The notes under the pieces: model-generated | Database searches by the model: none | Told to the model about the DNA's origin: nothing | What the model saw: only the letters and a program-made list of their open reading frames with translations | Source of the DNA: Lautropia mirabilis | GTDB lineage: Bacteria > Pseudomonadota > Gammaproteobacteria > Burkholderiales > Burkholderiaceae_B | Length of the DNA: 64,000 nt | Reading direction: 5' to 3' | Assembly: GCA_945876565.1 (NCBI GenBank) | Contig: CAMCOS010000001.1 | Span: forward strand, 95,925 to 159,924 | Made by a program: the position numbers and the translations under genes | Shown here: in pieces, positions 1 through 7,824 of the stretch | How the letters are laid out: each line of letters starts with the position of its first letter | Numbering within the stretch: the first letter of the stretch is position 1

Positions 1-927
1 AAAGCCCTCGCCGGCCTATGCGAGCACGGCCAGGTCGACTTTCAGGAATGCACTCATATCCAGACTGAGATTCAGACCATTAGTTTCAAGGACGGTCGCG
101 ACCTGAATGCGCTCGAAAAAGTCGGCGCTGACTGGACGGCGCGGGCAGCACTGGCACTGGAACGTCGAAAGCAGGCAGAGCCGCCTCTGCGCTCGGCCGA
201 GAAGCAGGTTGCCGCCAAGGAGCAGCAGGCAAGGGCACTGAGAGTCCGGCGCAACACTGCGGCGCTGGAGCAGGATCGCGGGCAACGTCTGCTTGAGGAA
301 CTCGAACGCTGGGAGAAAGCCTCCGGCTCGCCGGAAGCCGCAGATCAACTGGAAAAGTCGATTGCCCGCAGCGCTGAAATCGAACAGAGCATCAATGCCG
401 CGCGAGTGCAGCTCGCGACGCTCCAGCACGAAAGGTCTGCCCGTGAAAAATCGCTAGGTAAGTTGACCGATCTGCTCGTGCAGGAACTGCTTTCGAAGGA
501 AGCCGTCGGCGTCCTGGAGGTACGCGATGAAACCCGGCCATTCCGCCTTTCGCTCCGTGGTGGAGAAGCCTTCCGCGTGTTGGAAATCCTGATTGGCGAC
601 TTGGTATGCCTGCTCGACGCCAGCAACCCGGCCAGCGCCTTCCCCGGCCTGCTGATCCACGATTGCCCGCGCGAAGCCGACATGGGGCCGCGGCCCTACC
701 GCGATTACCTCCACTTGATCGAGCGCATCGAGCGTGAGGCGTACGGTGATGCTGCACCATTCCAGTACATTGTCACCACCACCACACCGCCGCCCGAATC
801 TCTTCAGGACGAGCCGTACCTGCGCTTGACACTTGATCCGAGTCACGACGAGGAGTTGCTGTTTGGGCGGCGGTTCAGAACGCAGGTACAAACAGAGCCC
901 CTTCAACCGGCAGAGCGGCAGACATGA
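1..927 (+). CDS. SMC/ABC-like coiled-coil ATPase, C-terminal part (5' truncated by window edge)
   Basis: Frame 1 is open from base 1 to TGA at 925-927. Long Glu/Arg/Gln-rich coiled coil, then GLLIHDCPREADMG (Walker-B/D-loop-like) and a C-terminal TTTTPPP...LTLDPSHDEELLFGRRF. The ORF track lists only the internal GTG start at 406. Confidence 0.7.
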   Translation, partial: KALAGLCEHGQVDFQECTHIQTEIQTISFKDGRDLNALEKVGADWTARAALALERRKQAEPPLRSAEKQVAAKEQQARALRVRRNTAALEQDRGQRLLEELERWEKASGSPEAADQLEKSIARSAEIEQSINAARVQLATLQHERSAREKSLGKLTDLLVQELLSKEAVGVLEVRDETRPFRLSLRGGEAFRVLEILIGDLVCLLDASNPASAFPGLLIHDCPREADMGPRPYRDYLHLIERIEREAYGDAAPFQYIVTTTTPPPESLQDEPYLRLTLDPSHDEELLFGRRFRTQVQTEPLQPAERQT

Positions 928-3900
928 CCATCATTCAGGCGAAATATCAACAGCTGGCTCCGCGAAGCGACTTCCTGAGCGATGTCGTTGTATTGGCACA
1001 GGCATGGAAGAAGACCCATACGGCAATCCGGAAACACAACTGGTACGCCGATATGCTGGAGCTTGATTGCTCAACGGTCGACCTTCAACGCCAGCTAGGT
1101 ATATGGGCTGAAGCTGTGACCCACAAGAATTTCGCGCCTGACTTCATGCGGTTGGTGCCTGCGCCGAAGAATTCACGATGGGAGTTCCCGACTGACCCTG
1201 AAAAGATTCAACTCGATGTGCTGGATATTCTCAGTACAGATGCAGAGCGCCTTCGGAAGCATGATCAAAACATTCAGTTTGATGCTTGGCGTGTAGCGGA
1301 GACTGGGGCGAAAGGTAATACGACAAGGGAGCAAAAACTTCGTCCCCTTGCGCATCTCTCCATCCGGGATCAGACCTTGGCGACCGCTGTGATGCTCTGC
1401 TTGGCAGACGCGGTGGAAAGTGCTCAAGGAGACACATCTGAACGAGACGGTATCAAAGCCCAGAGAGCAGGTATTTTTAGCTATGGCAACCGCTTGCATT
1501 GCCGATGGGATTCGTCCACCAAACCTCGCCCACGAGCATGTTTCGGCTGGGGAAACTCACGCACCTATAGCCAGTACTTTCAGGACTATCGGGTGTTTCT
1601 GGCGCGGCCACGCGGGGTTTGTGCAGAACTGGCCACGCAATTACCGGCCGGGCGTGAGCTCTACGTGGTTTCGCTGGACATCAAGTCGTTCTTCGATCAG
1701 GTTGATCGCACTGCGCTTGTCGGCCAGCTCAAGCAGCTCTATGCCGAATTTGCCGAAAGCTTCGGCCTTCCGGCTTCACTCTTGGCAGACGATGAATTCT
1801 GGAAGATAGCCGAGCGCATATTTTCATGGCAATGGGAATCGGCGGATCAACAGTATGCGCCGTTAATTTCACCCGACTCCCCGTTGCCGACGGGTCTGCC
1901 ACAAGGATTGATTGCATCAGGCTTCCTGGCCAACGCTTACATGATTGGCTTTGACCGTTTGATGGGCGAGGCACTCAATGCCTTGAGCCCTGAAAATGAC
2001 TTCATCATCCGAGACTATTGTCGCTATGTGGATGATATTCGGTTGGTCGTGGAGGCGCGACATGGCGATGGCGAGGATGCCGAAAAATTGGCGCGTGACA
2101 TCAGTGCTCGGCTTGATGAGCTATTAAAGCGACACATTTTGCAGATTGGCGCCAAGATTCCCCTGGTGTTAAACGATGAGAAGACGGCGGTAACACCGTA
2201 CAGATCGATATCTGCACAAAATAACCTGTCGGCCTTGATGGAGCTTTTGCAGGAAGCAATCAGCGGAACGTTCGATTTGGATTCTCTGGCCCAGGCTGCC
2301 GGTGGGCTTGATGGATTGCTCTGGATGTCTGAACAGTTGGACGATCCTCAGGCGCGGAAGAAGTCGCCGCTGGATCTGGCCAACATTGCAGTGCCCAACA
2401 CAGACGTTCGCGACGATACGGTAAAGCGATTCGTCGCAACCCGCATTGCATCGGCCCTCCGCATGCGCTTGGCGATGACGGATACCGAGGGAAAGGCGGA
2501 CAACGAAGCGGCGATCAATGATGAAGTGAACGCCGGGGCCGCATTGAGCCACGAGTTCGAGGCCATGGCGCGAAAGCTGATCAAGTGTTGGGCGGACAAC
2601 CCTGCCCTGGCCTTGCTGTTGAGAGTTGGATTGGATCTGTTTCCTCACCCCAGACTACTCGGGCCAGTGTTGGATGCGCTCGAAAGCAAGCTATACGCAA
2701 TCGCCAGGAAGGATAACGAGACGGCTTCCCATGAGGTGAAGGTTGCCGAGTATGTGGCCGCGGATCTGTTGCGAGCGGGAGCTTCGGAAACCGGCTACCG
2801 AGAGGATGCCGAATATCCAGACGCTGCTGATATTGGCCAGTATCGGCGCGACCTTGCCATATTTGCTCGACAAGTCTTGATCGAGCGAGAAAGTCATTCA
2901 CCTTGGTATCTCCGACAGCAGGCTCTGCTATTTCTTGCCTCAGTCGGTGATCATTCAGCAGCAACCACGGTATCGTCGGACCACCCTGATAATTATTCTC
3001 GGCTCCATCAGGCGATGCTCTATTCGCCTTGTCGCGATACCGATTTGGAAATTGCACTACCGCTTGCGCTGGTTGGGCAGCAACTCTCACCAGCTCCTGA
3101 CCGTTTCGCGGCTTGGCTAAACGAATGCCTTCGAGCCAGCAGAGATACCGAGGTAATTCGGCGAAGTGTGCTTACGGTGGCGCTCAATCGGCCTGACTTG
3201 ATTCAGGCCGCGATCAAGATAAGAACAGGCAAATCGGCAAGTTGGCGGCAGTTTGTGCCAACTTCGCTGAAGGCGTCACGCAATGGATCCACCAAGAAGT
3301 CGTTGCGGCTCGACAAGGGCGCTCGTTTACCGCTACTGCGGCTGATCTCTGCTCCGTTCAATCCTTTTTCTCAGGAGAACGGGTTGCTCGTGCTGGCGCA
3401 GGCATTGCTGGAGAAACCAGACATCGAGAAGATTCTCGCCGCTGGGTTGCACATCGGCGAAATTGAGGCGACGTGCAAGGATTGGTCACGGATTCAATCA
3501 CTGCCCGAGCACGAGCCGGACTTTCTCGAAATCACATTTGACCGTGACCAGGGGGTTGATCCTCTTTACGAGCCCCCTCCTTGGGTTGAGTCAGATGTGG
3601 CATGGCTCTATGGTTTGGGGAGAATCCTTCGTGCCTGCATTACGGGTGAGTTTGACTTCACGGCGGGACGCTATCTCACGACGGAGGATGCTTCACGATA
3701 TTACGGCCTGCGATCCACGTGGTTCAAAAGGCGGTTTGGATTATTGAACACCGGTCGCGGCCTGCTCGATGAGCCTGCGCCAATCTCGCCATGGCTCTCA
3801 AGTTTATTGTCCGTGTTACTGCAATGGCCGGGTACGGATATCAGGGGAGAGAACGCGGCGAAGCTACTCTGCGCGAAAACCCGCGTCGAAATTCTCGAGT

Positions 3901-4889
3901 CGATTCAGGAACGCATCGCCGTGCAGCGTGCGCTATATGGCGGTCAATCGGGTACGCCTATGTACGTTGTGCCAACTCAGGAGGATCTGCCTCCGGTTGC
4001 ACGACCCATGCGCATCGCAGTGGTTCAACCAATGCTCCCACGTCGGGACCAGTTCAACACCAAAGAACCATGCCGCTGGTCGGGGAAGCTGATGGCCGAA
4101 CATCGCCGCCACTTGGCTGAGGTGTGTCGCCTGACTCACCAGAAGCTGAAGACCTGGGTAAGCGCCCAGAAGGATGGGAAGGAAGACGACCGGAATCGCG
4201 AACCGATGGTTGATCTGATTCTATTTCCTGAACTGTCTGTTCACCCCGAGCACATTTCCCACCTGCGAGCTCTCTCAGATAAGGTTAAGGCATCGATATT
4301 CGTCGGGTTGACCTTTATCCAGCCCCCTAGGCATGCGGCCCCGATCAACCAAGGTTTGTGGCTGATCCGAACTGAAAATCCTGGTGGCGGAAGAACCCTT
4401 CAGTATGCCTGGCAAGGGAAAAAGCACCCGACTTCGCTCGAAGAGAAGATGGGAGTCAAAGGACATCGCCCACATCAGGTTCTGGTGGAGTTCCCTATCG
4501 GCACCCACACGCCAACGCGAGTGGCAGCCGCCATCTGTTACGACGCGACAGACCTGGCTCTGGTGGCTGATTTGCGCGAGCGGTCAGACGTATTTCTGGT
4601 TGCCGCGCTCAACCAGGATGTTCAGACTTTTGACAACATGGTTGCGGCTCTTCATTTCCACATGTACCAGCCTGTCGTACTGGCCAACATGGGCGAATTC
4701 GGTGGATCGACTGCTCAGGCGCCGCTGCCAAAATATGAGCGGCTGATCGCGCATGTCCACGGCGGCAATCAGGTTGCCGTCAGCGTGTTCGAGATAGATC
4801 CCAGTCTATTCAAGACGATTGCCAAGCCAAAACCCACACATGACTTGAAGACGCCTCCCGCTGGATACAAAGGCCGGCCACCATGTTGA
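924..4889 (+). CDS. Reverse transcriptase-nitrilase fusion, UG/DRT class-1-like defence RT (1321 aa)
   Basis: RT motif A (SLDIKSFFDQVD), motif B (PTGLPQGLIASGFLANAYM), YVDD box (codons 2025-2036). C-terminal carbon-nitrogen hydrolase: ILFPELSVHPEH (Glu codon 4230-4232) and AAICYDATD (Cys codon 4536-4538). Confidence 0.9.
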   Translation: MTIIQAKYQQLAPRSDFLSDVVVLAQAWKKTHTAIRKHNWYADMLELDCSTVDLQRQLGIWAEAVTHKNFAPDFMRLVPAPKNSRWEFPTDPEKIQLDVLDILSTDAERLRKHDQNIQFDAWRVAETGAKGNTTREQKLRPLAHLSIRDQTLATAVMLCLADAVESAQGDTSERDGIKAQRAGIFSYGNRLHCRWDSSTKPRPRACFGWGNSRTYSQYFQDYRVFLARPRGVCAELATQLPAGRELYVVSLDIKSFFDQVDRTALVGQLKQLYAEFAESFGLPASLLADDEFWKIAERIFSWQWESADQQYAPLISPDSPLPTGLPQGLIASGFLANAYMIGFDRLMGEALNALSPENDFIIRDYCRYVDDIRLVVEARHGDGEDAEKLARDISARLDELLKRHILQIGAKIPLVLNDEKTAVTPYRSISAQNNLSALMELLQEAISGTFDLDSLAQAAGGLDGLLWMSEQLDDPQARKKSPLDLANIAVPNTDVRDDTVKRFVATRIASALRMRLAMTDTEGKADNEAAINDEVNAGAALSHEFEAMARKLIKCWADNPALALLLRVGLDLFPHPRLLGPVLDALESKLYAIARKDNETASHEVKVAEYVAADLLRAGASETGYREDAEYPDAADIGQYRRDLAIFARQVLIERESHSPWYLRQQALLFLASVGDHSAATTVSSDHPDNYSRLHQAMLYSPCRDTDLEIALPLALVGQQLSPAPDRFAAWLNECLRASRDTEVIRRSVLTVALNRPDLIQAAIKIRTGKSASWRQFVPTSLKASRNGSTKKSLRLDKGARLPLLRLISAPFNPFSQENGLLVLAQALLEKPDIEKILAAGLHIGEIEATCKDWSRIQSLPEHEPDFLEITFDRDQGVDPLYEPPPWVESDVAWLYGLGRILRACITGEFDFTAGRYLTTEDASRYYGLRSTWFKRRFGLLNTGRGLLDEPAPISPWLSSLLSVLLQWPGTDIRGENAAKLLCAKTRVEILESIQERIAVQRALYGGQSGTPMYVVPTQEDLPPVARPMRIAVVQPMLPRRDQFNTKEPCRWSGKLMAEHRRHLAEVCRLTHQKLKTWVSAQKDGKEDDRNREPMVDLILFPELSVHPEHISHLRALSDKVKASIFVGLTFIQPPRHAAPINQGLWLIRTENPGGGRTLQYAWQGKKHPTSLEEKMGVKGHRPHQVLVEFPIGTHTPTRVAAAICYDATDLALVADLRERSDVFLVAALNQDVQTFDNMVAALHFHMYQPVVLANMGEFGGSTAQAPLPKYERLIAHVHGGNQVAVSVFEIDPSLFKTIAKPKPTHDLKTPPAGYKGRPPC

Positions 4890-4941
4890 ATCGCATTCAA
4901 ATATTTGCCATTGAAACAGCACGGTCCGAAGGAATAATCAG

Positions 4942-5658
4942 ATGACCCAAGAAACCACCCTGAGAATTTACAACGTTTATTGCGATGAGTCGTGCCACTT
5001 GGAGCACGACGGGCAGCCCATCATGGCGTTTGGCGCAACTTGGTGCCCCAAGGACGAGGCGCACCGGCTGGCCACCGAACTCAGGGACATCAAGAGTCGT
5101 CATCGCGCGCGAGGCGAACTCAAGTGGTCAAAAATTTCAGCGGCACGTCTTCCGTTCTACCTGGAGCTGGTCGACTGGTTTTTAGCCGAGCAGCCGCTGC
5201 ATTTTCGTGGCCTGGTTGTGCTGGACAAGCAGAATCTTGATCATGCGTCATTCAATCAGGGTGATCACGACGTCTTTTATTACAAAATGCAGTTCTCGCT
5301 ACTGAACAAAATATTGAGCCCCGATAGCCGGTATGCGATATATCTGGATGTCAAGGACACCAGAAGCCGCCTCAAACTCAAGAAACTGAAAGAGGTGCTG
5401 TGCAATAACGTGTATGACTTCACCAGCGACATGATTGGTCATATCCAGAACATTCACTCTCATGAATCTGAGCTGATGCAGGTGGCCGACTTTCTGACCG
5501 GGGCACTGGCCTATCGACATCGAGGGCTATCCGGAAATCCCGCCAAAATGCAGGTGATCGAGCATCTCGAAACCCGTTGGGGACGGTCGCTCTTGCAGGC
5601 GACCTCGTTACGAGAGCAGAAGCTCAATATTTTCCTTTTCCGTCCAAGGCAGGCATGA
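4942..5658 (+). CDS. DUF3800 domain protein (RNase H-like fold family)
   Basis: N-terminal YNVYCDESCHL, GELKWSKI, YLDVKDTRS and C-terminal SELMQVADFLTGAL are typical DUF3800 motifs. Confidence 0.8.
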   Translation: MTQETTLRIYNVYCDESCHLEHDGQPIMAFGATWCPKDEAHRLATELRDIKSRHRARGELKWSKISAARLPFYLELVDWFLAEQPLHFRGLVVLDKQNLDHASFNQGDHDVFYYKMQFSLLNKILSPDSRYAIYLDVKDTRSRLKLKKLKEVLCNNVYDFTSDMIGHIQNIHSHESELMQVADFLTGALAYRHRGLSGNPAKMQVIEHLETRWGRSLLQATSLREQKLNIFLFRPRQA

Positions 5659-5659
5659 C

Positions 5660-6136
5660 ATGGCCGCACATCCGACATGGCTGCCCGTAATATTTCCGAT
5701 GTCGCCTTGGTCAGAAGCAGTGATGGAAGCGCTTTATGCAATTTTCCGCCGCGACTTCGTCGACAACCCGGCGAGTTATCGAGGACACGGCGTATGGTTC
5801 TTCCCGGAAAAGGATCGCGGCAAGGAAAACATCTTCTGGCATTTGGTGGAGCGGGACGACAAGGGGACTGGCGCTCGCCTCCCGGATTTCCGTCGTTCTG
5901 AGAGATTGCCTTGGGCACGGCCAATGCTGGACAACCTGGGCCAGCCTGAAATTCTGGATTGGGACTATGCGGAAGGCGACAAAAGCATCCACACGTACGT
6001 ATGGCTCAAGGATTTCGACTATTTGATCGTGATGAAGAAGTACCCGAACGGGCAGCGCCGGTTGATAACGGCGTACTACGTCGATTACGAAAATACCCGC
6101 CGGAAACTACGGAAAAAATATGAGGGGCGGGTTTAG
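5660..6136 (+). CDS. Small protein, possibly BECR/RelE-like nuclease fold; family not securely assigned
   Basis: 158-aa ORF starting 1 nt after the DUF3800 stop. C-terminal DYLIVMKKYPNGQRRLITAYYVDYENTRRKLRKKYEGR resembles BECR-type toxin-like domains. An internal ATG at 5699 is an alternative start. Confidence 0.5.
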   Translation: MAAHPTWLPVIFPMSPWSEAVMEALYAIFRRDFVDNPASYRGHGVWFFPEKDRGKENIFWHLVERDDKGTGARLPDFRRSERLPWARPMLDNLGQPEILDWDYAEGDKSIHTYVWLKDFDYLIVMKKYPNGQRRLITAYYVDYENTRRKLRKKYEGRV

Positions 6137-6243
6137 ATGCTTGCAGAAATGAAAAGGCCGGCGCACGTGGCGTCGGCCCAACTCCTTCTGCCTTTGGCAG
6201 ATGAGATGACCAAATTATGGTCGTCTGATCGGCGGAAGTCAAG

Positions 6244-7023
6244 GTGTTCAACAGAGCCGGGGGGCGCATGCTCTCGGAGTTGAAGCTGCTGACACTGGCC
6301 CAGCTGGAGAAGGCCGCCATTGATTCCGGCTTTGATGTTGTTGGCGGGCTTGCCAGCAGGCTGATGTCGTTTCGTAGCAGCCAGTGTCCGCTGAAGGTTT
6401 GGCTCGGCATTATGGATGCTCGGCCACTGGTAGGCCTTTCCATGGCGAATGTTGCGGCCGAGATGGATCGTCTATCGATCTCAGCTCCTTTACCAGTTGA
6501 AGGTTGCCATGCATGGATCACCGCTGCGGATTTCGTTGATCTTGATCACTTGCTCGGTCGCGCTTTTGCACTATCACGAGCCCTTCCGAATCAGTTGCTC
6601 GAATCGTGGGAGCACCAGGTTCAAACGCTTTCTGCCACTGAACGTGAATCGGTTGTCCGCCAACGCGTAGGACAGGAGTTGTTTCGGGAGGGACTCCTGG
6701 CGCTCTGGGCTGGGCGTTGCGCGGTGACAGGTTTGGACGAACCCGTGCTGCTACGCGCCAGCCACGCCAAGCCGTGGAAGGATGCAAATGATGCAGAGCG
6801 CCTCGACGTCTACAATGGCCTGCTACTTGCGGCACACTTGGATGCAGCCTTCGACAAAGGCCTGATCACTGTGGATGAGAAGGGCATCGTCGTTCCAAGC
6901 CCAACATTGTCGCAACTGTCACTCCAGATACTTGGCCTGACCAGCGATCGGTCGATTGTGCATCTACGTTCCCAGCATCATCCCTATATGCGATGGCATC
7001 GGGAACATGTATTCCGGAAATGA
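6244..7023 (+). CDS. HNH endonuclease (HNH_2-like)
   Basis: GRCAVTGLDEPVLLRASHAKPWKDAN...LDVYNGLLLAAHLDAAFDKGLI is a classic HNH_2 core. GTG start at 6244 or ATG at 6268. Confidence 0.85.
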   Translation: MFNRAGGRMLSELKLLTLAQLEKAAIDSGFDVVGGLASRLMSFRSSQCPLKVWLGIMDARPLVGLSMANVAAEMDRLSISAPLPVEGCHAWITAADFVDLDHLLGRAFALSRALPNQLLESWEHQVQTLSATERESVVRQRVGQELFREGLLALWAGRCAVTGLDEPVLLRASHAKPWKDANDAERLDVYNGLLLAAHLDAAFDKGLITVDEKGIVVPSPTLSQLSLQILGLTSDRSIVHLRSQHHPYMRWHREHVFRK

Positions 7024-7236
7024 GTAGCCTTAACAGTGCTCGGCAACCTGATCGCTTGAAACACGTTCCTTTGTCATCGAACTTGAGCAGCTTCAGCATG
7101 CAAGCGATAATACGTTTTTCCCCTAGTGTCGAGTATTGGCACGGTCTTCAAGCGACGAAAAAACAGGACAAGGAACCGGATAAATTTCCTAGTAGCTGTC
7201 GGCATCGCATAGAAGAATTAACAGGATAGATTAACT

Positions 7237-7824
7237 ATGCTACTGATGATCGACAATTACGATTCATTCACATACAACTTGGTGCAGTATTTTGGTGAAT
7301 TAGGCGAAGATGTTTGCGTATACCGCAACGATCAGGTAACGATAGAGGAAATTGAGAGCCTCCAGCCTGATCATATTTGCGTCTCACCCGGACCCTGCTC
7401 GCCTGCTGAAGCGGGTATTTCGGTGCCTTTGATCAAGCATTTCGCAGGCAAACTGCCGATTCTGGGGGTTTGCCTCGGGCACCAGTCGATTGGGGCCGCA
7501 TTTGGGGGGCGGATTGTTCGCGCCAAAGAGCTAATGCACGGCAAAACCTCCGACATCACCCACTTGGGCACAGACGTGTTTGCCAACTTGCCATCCCCAT
7601 ACACAGTCACGCGGTACCATTCTCTAGCCATTGAACGCGACACTTTGCCTCAGTGCCTGGTGGTGACAGCCGAAACACCGGACGGTGAAATCATGGGCAT
7701 CCGGCATCGGGATCTACCGATCTATGGCGTGCAGTTTCACCCAGAGTCGATCTTGACCGAGCACGGCCATGCGCTCTTGCAGAACTTTCTAAAACTGACA
7801 CACCCGATTGCCGCGGCAGCCTAA
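7237..7824 (+). CDS. trpG: Anthranilate synthase component II (glutamine amidotransferase)
   Basis: [32 protein letters not shown] motifs. Confidence 0.97.

Follow-up and report, generated by a model that had tools for sequence, protein, structure and literature searches.

Does an RT–nitrilase gene (RT, reverse transcriptase) packed between an ATPase gene and nuclease-like genes belong to a defence system larger than itself, and if so, to which one? The question is raised by the first 7,023 nucleotides of a 64,000-nucleotide stretch of Lautropia mirabilis DNA, hereafter the window (positions 95925-159924 of contig CAMCOS010000001.1, or C1, of a 2.82-Mb genome in 89 contigs). We propose that the locus is probably an ARMADA I-like anti-phage operon in which the RT-nitrilase, a DRT1 protein, is nested as an abortive back-up effector in the slot between the methyltransferase and HNH nuclease genes. 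ARMADA I and DRT1 are both already known; their combination in one operon appears to be new.

An RT-nitrilase gene in a larger operon

The window starts with five co-oriented open reading frames (ORFs; lengths in amino acids, aa):

1..927, + strand: 3' part of the ATPase gene (full gene C1:94842-96851, 669 aa; SMC/LmuB-like ABC ATPase)
924..4889, + strand: DRT1 (UG1, class 3) RT-nitrilase, 1321 aa (PADLOC Drt1a, 1386 bits; PDB 9YFD)
4942..5658, + strand: DUF3800 protein, PDC-M04A (PF12686, 5.7e-16; PDC-M04A, 300 bits)
5660..6136, + strand: toxin-like PDC-M04B protein of 158 aa (PDC-M04B, 162 bits)
6268..7023 (listed start GTG 6244), + strand: HNH_2 endonuclease (PF13391, 1.1e-11)

An earlier note, made from the sequence of the window, had described these genes as a five-gene defence locus. 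Their positions and spacings are exact: the ATPase and RT genes overlap by 4 nt (927/924), and the next gaps measure 52 nt (RT to DUF3800), 1 nt (DUF3800 to small protein) and 107 nt (small protein to HNH). The five family labels also hold, the ATPase being weakly LmuB-like. For the HNH gene, ATG 6268 is more likely the start than GTG 6244, as homologues align from about residue 10.

Reading upstream, as the note had advised, completed the ATPase, whose gene starts at C1:94842, 1082 bases before the window. It is preceded by three co-oriented genes, for a 1758-aa DEAD helicase with an MZB/DUF1998 domain (YprA-like), a 972-aa SNF2 helicase and a 1464-aa N6-methyltransferase. The junctions from YprA through the RT are -4, +11, +13 and -4 nt, followed by 52, 1 and 131 nt, the last counted to the preferred HNH start. 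The RT-nitrilase is thus part of something larger than a stand-alone gene, as the note had surmised for an expanded system, but the operon begins three genes upstream of the ATPase rather than with it. A scan of positions 1-7300 with Rfam gave no match, as expected for a class 3 DRT.

An ARMADA type I-like core

ARMADA type I is described as a YprA helicase, a BrxHII-like helicase and a PglX-like methyltransferase, in that order (Bell et al. 2025 preprint, PMC12458937), and the YprA-SNF2-methyltransferase order found here matches it. YprA (C1:82231-87507) combines DEAD, Helicase_C and MZB domains in one protein; its best PADLOC match is DruE, as would be expected of the ARMADA/Druantia branch. 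The SNF2 helicase is DpdE/DrmD-like (NCBIfam DrmD, 7.7e-87, below cut-off; RapA, 1.3e-35), and the methyltransferase matches Eco57I/N6_Mtase and PADLOC DrmMI (210 bits). None of the NCBIfam matches of these three genes lies above its curated cut-off, but their Walker, DEAH, DPACGSG and NPPW motifs are intact. DISARM class 1 was ruled out, because MZB is fused to YprA and no phospholipase-D gene (DrmC) is present among the island ORFs scanned. When the phylum, the order and the class were sampled, about 2-4% of the genomes had an ARMADA I SNF2 gene.

An active Vsr nuclease at the YprA C-terminus is typical of ARMADA type I (PMC12458937). Here this domain is degenerate: the DF.Y...IDGPHH catalytic segment, kept in about 20 other YprAs, is missing. 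The core therefore appears to be an ARMADA I-like variant rather than a plain member of the type.

DRT1 is intact at every catalytic position

PDB 9YFD, a DRT1, is the only related solved structure (E=1.9e-159). The RT domain matches Pfam RVT_1 and keeps its YVDD motif (D370/D371). The priming serine, S447, corresponds to S402 of 9YFD, the register being set through a homologue (L009; L numbers denote loci) aligned to 9YFD. The nitrilase triad is E1103-K1166-C1205, and the C-terminal lid comprises K1309, P1312 and A1313. The YVDD motif, priming serine and triad are identical in 77/77 full-length homologues, and the lid residues in 76-77 of them. With its catalytic and priming residues all intact, the window protein is, as far as sequence can tell, a bona fide DRT1. 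The DNA adducts that DRT1 makes, protein-primed and semirandom, keep the enzyme in dormant filaments (Neville et al. 2026, PMC13275509). Its defence is abortive and requires the RT, the priming serine and the nitrilase cysteine, and both purified and cloned DRT1 are self-sufficient (PMC13275509).

Drt1b, an optional transmembrane partner found at ~18% of loci and not defining for DRT1, is not encoded beside the window RT; it is present in L006 and L007. The small protein of the window was considered for this role and rejected: it matches PDC-M04B, not Drt1b, and in BLAST it resembled none of the small proteins encoded next to the RT in L006, L007 and L009. Among 274 genomes of the class, the window copy was the only RT of this kind found.

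Some DRT1 genes are interrupted. In one Polaromonas strain, a tyrosine-recombinase trio lies inside the gene (L083:5554-12934), which is intact in the near-identical sister strain (L050). The Aromatoleum toluvorans gene (L031:9953-15348) is split by an insertion of ~1.4 kb. At L080:10001-14649, DRT1 is in two ORFs, RT-helical and nitrilase; behind them come a distant DUF3800 gene and one that is NYN-like.

DRT1 recurs at one place in ARMADA I operons

GTDB species genomes were scanned with a five-sequence RT alignment, which yielded 77 loci, 65 of them with more than 3 kb of upstream sequence. At 13 other loci (13/65), DRT1 lies in an ARMADA I operon whose genes run methyltransferase-[ATPase]-RT-[variable]-HNH. 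Twelve of these loci also have YprA; in L012, which does not, the 10.6-kb contig starts inside the methyltransferase gene. The ATPase is present in 12 of the 14 ARMADA-linked RT loci, the window included, and directly precedes the RT in 11 of the 13 others; the HNH gene closes the order in 12 of the 13. The recurrence of this order in other genomes excludes chance as the cause of the ATPase-RT-HNH association, and the ATPase and HNH genes are real, recurrent neighbours of the RT in a defence locus. The earlier note had reasoned that RT-nitrilases consistently found without these neighbours would speak against a common system; they are found so in 52 of the 65 loci, and not in the 13. The closest relative of the window RT (76%) is that of L012, a contig of a Zixiibacteriota metagenome-assembled genome whose operon is proteobacterial-like and which may be mis-binned.

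The interval between RT and HNH is variable. It holds GmrSD/DUF262 genes in L014, L031, L045 and L049 (fragments in L023 and L048), Schlafen/AlbA_2 genes in L012 and L060, and the DUF3800 and M04B genes in the window; it is empty in L016, L017 and L050. At the RT-less ARMADA locus L109 (12668-19247, in the reverse complement of the stretch read at that locus), the ATPase is followed by two proteins of ~890 aa and a McrC-like gene. The closest cores to that of the window, L143 and L144 (SNF2 70%), lack ATPase, RT and DUF3800 genes; their methyltransferase is directly followed by HNH, with a 4-nt overlap in L143. A Pseudoalteromonas RT-small-HNH arrangement (L006) was compared with the window block as a possible conserved counterpart and dismissed, neither the small protein nor the HNH being homologous.

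Outside ARMADA, many DRT1 genes are on their own, are accompanied by Drt1b or follow type I restriction genes. In L064, L065, L066, L068 and L080, DRT1 comes directly after hsdRMS, and in L041, L062 and L085 after type I genes; in most, the HsdR-HsdM-HsdS-DRT1 gaps are 20-60 nt or overlaps. Through this position behind type I restriction-modification (RM) genes, DRT1 is linked a second time, and independently, to a methylation-based system, as expected of a back-up effector.

The ATPase goes with a tail on the methyltransferase

The ATPase keeps a Walker A motif (AGHGVGKS) and a C-terminal GGEA...LIHDCPREAD signature, invariant or nearly so in 12 homologues. Its match to PADLOC LmuB is weak (2e-14), and it has none among PDB sequences. 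At 19/19 loci with the ATPase, the methyltransferase carries a C-terminal tail of 160-220 aa, versus an extension of 0-20 aa at loci without it (15/15), including L014, which has the RT. ATPase and tail change about 10 times on the SNF2 tree, always together (9/9 independent pairs, p 0.004). The model of the tail, of fair confidence (pLDDT 79), has mostly winged-helix folds as its nearest PDB neighbours, including LmuC of Lamassu, none of them significant. We infer that the ATPase and methyltransferase form a complex through the tail. This strict pairing is an accessory of ARMADA I that we did not find in the literature searched.

The HNH nuclease and the loss of Vsr

The residues of the HNH motif are invariant in 13 homologues. 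The gene is also present in the RT-less ARMADA loci L089-L092, L113, L115, L143 and L144, and in many ARMADA I operons it usually comes last. Degenerate Vsr domains mark one clade of ARMADA I (the window island, L089-L091, L113, L115, L143-L145 and L150-L154), and HNH is found in 15/15 complete loci with a degenerate Vsr versus 10/22 with an intact one (Fisher 4e-4). This is suggestive of HNH replacing the lost Vsr. A perfect complementarity of the two, which fitted at an early look, was abandoned, as the ARMADA-RT loci carry both.

A two-gene cargo module

The DUF3800 protein has conserved residues D15-E16, D136-K138 and Q180-AD183; it has no match among PDB sequences. M04B adjoins DUF3800 in L107, L118, L135 and L136. 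P1-like E. coli phage-plasmids, a Rhizobium plasmid and a phage contig carry the pair, and another RT-less ARMADA locus has it in its slot; a search for M04B in viral contigs gave no confirmed match. The pair is an independent two-gene cargo module, the PADLOC candidate PDC-M04. It is absent from every other ARMADA-RT locus, and its association with the RT may be due to chance. Of the five-gene block whose conservation the note had proposed to test, the ATPase-RT-HNH order thus recurs, but DUF3800 and the small protein do not recur with it. An AlphaFold2 model of M04B, made from two sequences, reached a pLDDT of 42 and was discarded as uninterpretable.

DRT1 is exchanged independently of the core

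Within the ARMADA-RT loci, distances among the SNF2, methyltransferase and HNH proteins are tightly correlated (Mantel rho 0.80-0.96; SNF2-methyltransferase 0.96, SNF2-HNH 0.82). Those of the ATPase follow the core (rho 0.57-0.68; 0.61 with SNF2), and those of the RT are uncoupled from it (rho 0.09-0.15; 0.14 with SNF2; not significant). In L031 and L049, the SNF2 proteins are 84% identical versus 35% for the RTs; in the window and L012, both ATPase and RT are close kin (76-78%). On the RT tree, the ARMADA label changes seven times and falls in two well-separated clades. DRT1 has been swapped independently of the core at a fixed place. HNH and ATPase, which follow the core, the RT, which does not, and the DUF3800-small protein pair belong to different evolutionary units.

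A mobile island in trpG

The defence operon is the 3' part of an island of ~32 kb (C1:70747-95924 and window 1-7236). Upstream of the operon, the island carries two RepB/ParB-like genes, a serine-recombinase C-terminal protein, three tandem tyrosine recombinases and a TrfA-like replication gene; its left part also has a small AlpA-like ORF, named by eye, and a phage-type integrase adjoining trpE. Its right border is formed by a host gene:

7237..7824, + strand: trpG; its first codons are the right end (attR) of the island

The island is integrated into the 5' end of trpG, splitting the trp operon, and trpG is rebuilt at the right end: trpE and trpG are contiguous in genomes of the same genus and ~32 kb apart here, and a vestige of the trpG start survives at the left end (21/28 bases identical to the right-hand trpG start).

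A probable nested back-up effector, and what else the locus might be

In the mechanism that we propose, every functional step of which is deduced from sequence, the methyltransferase would mark host DNA, and the two helicases and the HNH nuclease, replacing the degenerate Vsr, would attack unmarked invading DNA. The ATPase, tied to the methyltransferase by the winged-helix-like tail, might act as a sensor or clamp. DRT1 would be kept dormant by short DNA adducts that it makes itself, as has been shown for 9YFD, and would form a second, abortive layer, which would fire if phage replication proceeds or if the first layer is blocked, the two layers presumably communicating. BREX-type systems are known to recruit back-up effectors (PMC12839542, where RT-nitrilases are not mentioned), and the position of DRT1 suggests that bacteria equip a restriction-like system with a cell-suicide back-up.

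Several observations weigh against this proposal. DRT1 is rare in ARMADA I (~1/23 usable randomly sampled loci; the one hit, L147, shares all gene lengths and scores with L048 and is that record once more) and is mostly found without ARMADA; it therefore works alone and may merely share transcription. It occurs without the ATPase in L014, and L051 has no recognisable ATPase. Its independent exchange could mean that it makes no specific protein contact with the core. Furthermore, the loss of Vsr is a single change on the SNF2 tree, so that compensation by HNH has no independent replicates. A serious rival is that the methyltransferase-HNH slot is a recombination-prone place in a strongly expressed defence operon, where DRT1 and the DUF3800-M04B pair are stand-alone passengers using the promoter, with no functional link to ARMADA. 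We give it less credence than the back-up effector, but it has real weight: it accounts for a DRT1 phylogeny uncoupled from the core, for the many DRT1s standing alone or with Drt1b, for the self-sufficiency of the purified and cloned protein (PMC13275509), and for a slot that varies widely (GmrSD, Schlafen/AlbA_2, DUF3800, McrC-like or none). What it explains less well is that DRT1s from two separate clades sit at the same place, preceded by the ATPase or methyltransferase and followed by HNH, and that DRT1 also recurs behind type I RM genes; DRT1 therefore favours methylation-based operons. The 4-nt overlaps of the ATPase and RT genes moreover suggest translational coupling.

These overlapping neighbours might alternatively be a self-contained system, in which the ATPase senses the phage and releases DRT1, and which was inserted whole beside ARMADA. 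Their frequent adjacency and the joint kinship of both genes in the window and L012 fit such a unit. We nevertheless consider it improbable, since the ATPase occurs without the RT in L091, L109, L113, L115, L151, L152 and L160, always with the methyltransferase tail, the RT occurs without the ATPase in L014, and RTs are swapped under related ATPases (L031/L049). Least credible of all is the idea, raised in the earlier note, that the five genes are one new system. Their tight co-orientation speaks for it, but the neighbourhood data contradict it: DUF3800 and the small protein are free-standing elsewhere, and the five-gene block, made up of different evolutionary units, forms the downstream half of an operon of ARMADA type I-like kind that begins three genes upstream.

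Returning to DRT1 as a nested back-up effector, it is tempting to speculate on a sensor-effector bridge, in which the ATPase docks on the methyltransferase tail and releases the interchangeable suicide effector of the next slot when modification or restriction is blocked or stalled. We regard this more specific version as rather unlikely; if true, it would be the first protein-primed reverse transcriptase gated by a DNA-methylation immune complex. How DRT1 is activated is an open question in PMC13275509, like the substrate of its nitrilase; its repeated placement in ARMADA I operons and behind type I restriction genes suggests that it would fire when the methylation-based first layer fails, which is testable. 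The methyltransferase-HNH slot is also a place to look for further effectors. The literature searched, which does not cover the UG/Abi survey 10.1093/nar/gkac467 or supplements, describes neither the combination of ARMADA I and DRT1 nor the slot, the DRT1 exchange or the pairing of ATPase and tail; DRT1 may have been noted before in the vicinity of ARMADA-like or type I RM genes.

Comparison with known systems

With Lamassu, the locus shares a weakly LmuB-like ATPase and, in the methyltransferase tail, a winged-helix-like element; unlike Lamassu, it has no separate LmuC, the LmuC fold match is not significant (E 1.1), and no LmuA was matched among the genes scanned. As in PDC-M04, M04A and M04B are adjacent, co-oriented and 1 nt apart, but the window pair occupies the ARMADA slot behind DRT1, whereas PDC-M04 is free-standing elsewhere. 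PrrC/PARIS-type back-up effectors are likewise abortive effectors nested in methylation-based immune operons (restriction or BREX); the window effector differs in being an RT-nitrilase, and its triggering by anti-restriction is only proposed. The locus has in common with ARMADA type I (PMC12458937) the order of YprA-like, BrxHII/RapA-like SNF2 and PglX-like N6-methyltransferase genes, with motifs intact. It differs by its degenerate Vsr with an added HNH, by the SMC/LmuB-like ATPase with the methyltransferase tail, by DRT1 and by the DUF3800-M04B pair; in the main text of PMC12458937, reverse transcriptases, nitrilases and SMC go unmentioned, and HNH appears only among the references. As for DRT1/UG1 itself (PMC13275509, 9YFD), the window RT has ~30-35% identity to the plasmid-borne DRT1s compared and is embedded in an ARMADA I-like operon without Drt1b, yet it shares with DRT1/UG1 the entire domain architecture and the RT, priming, nitrilase and lid residues.

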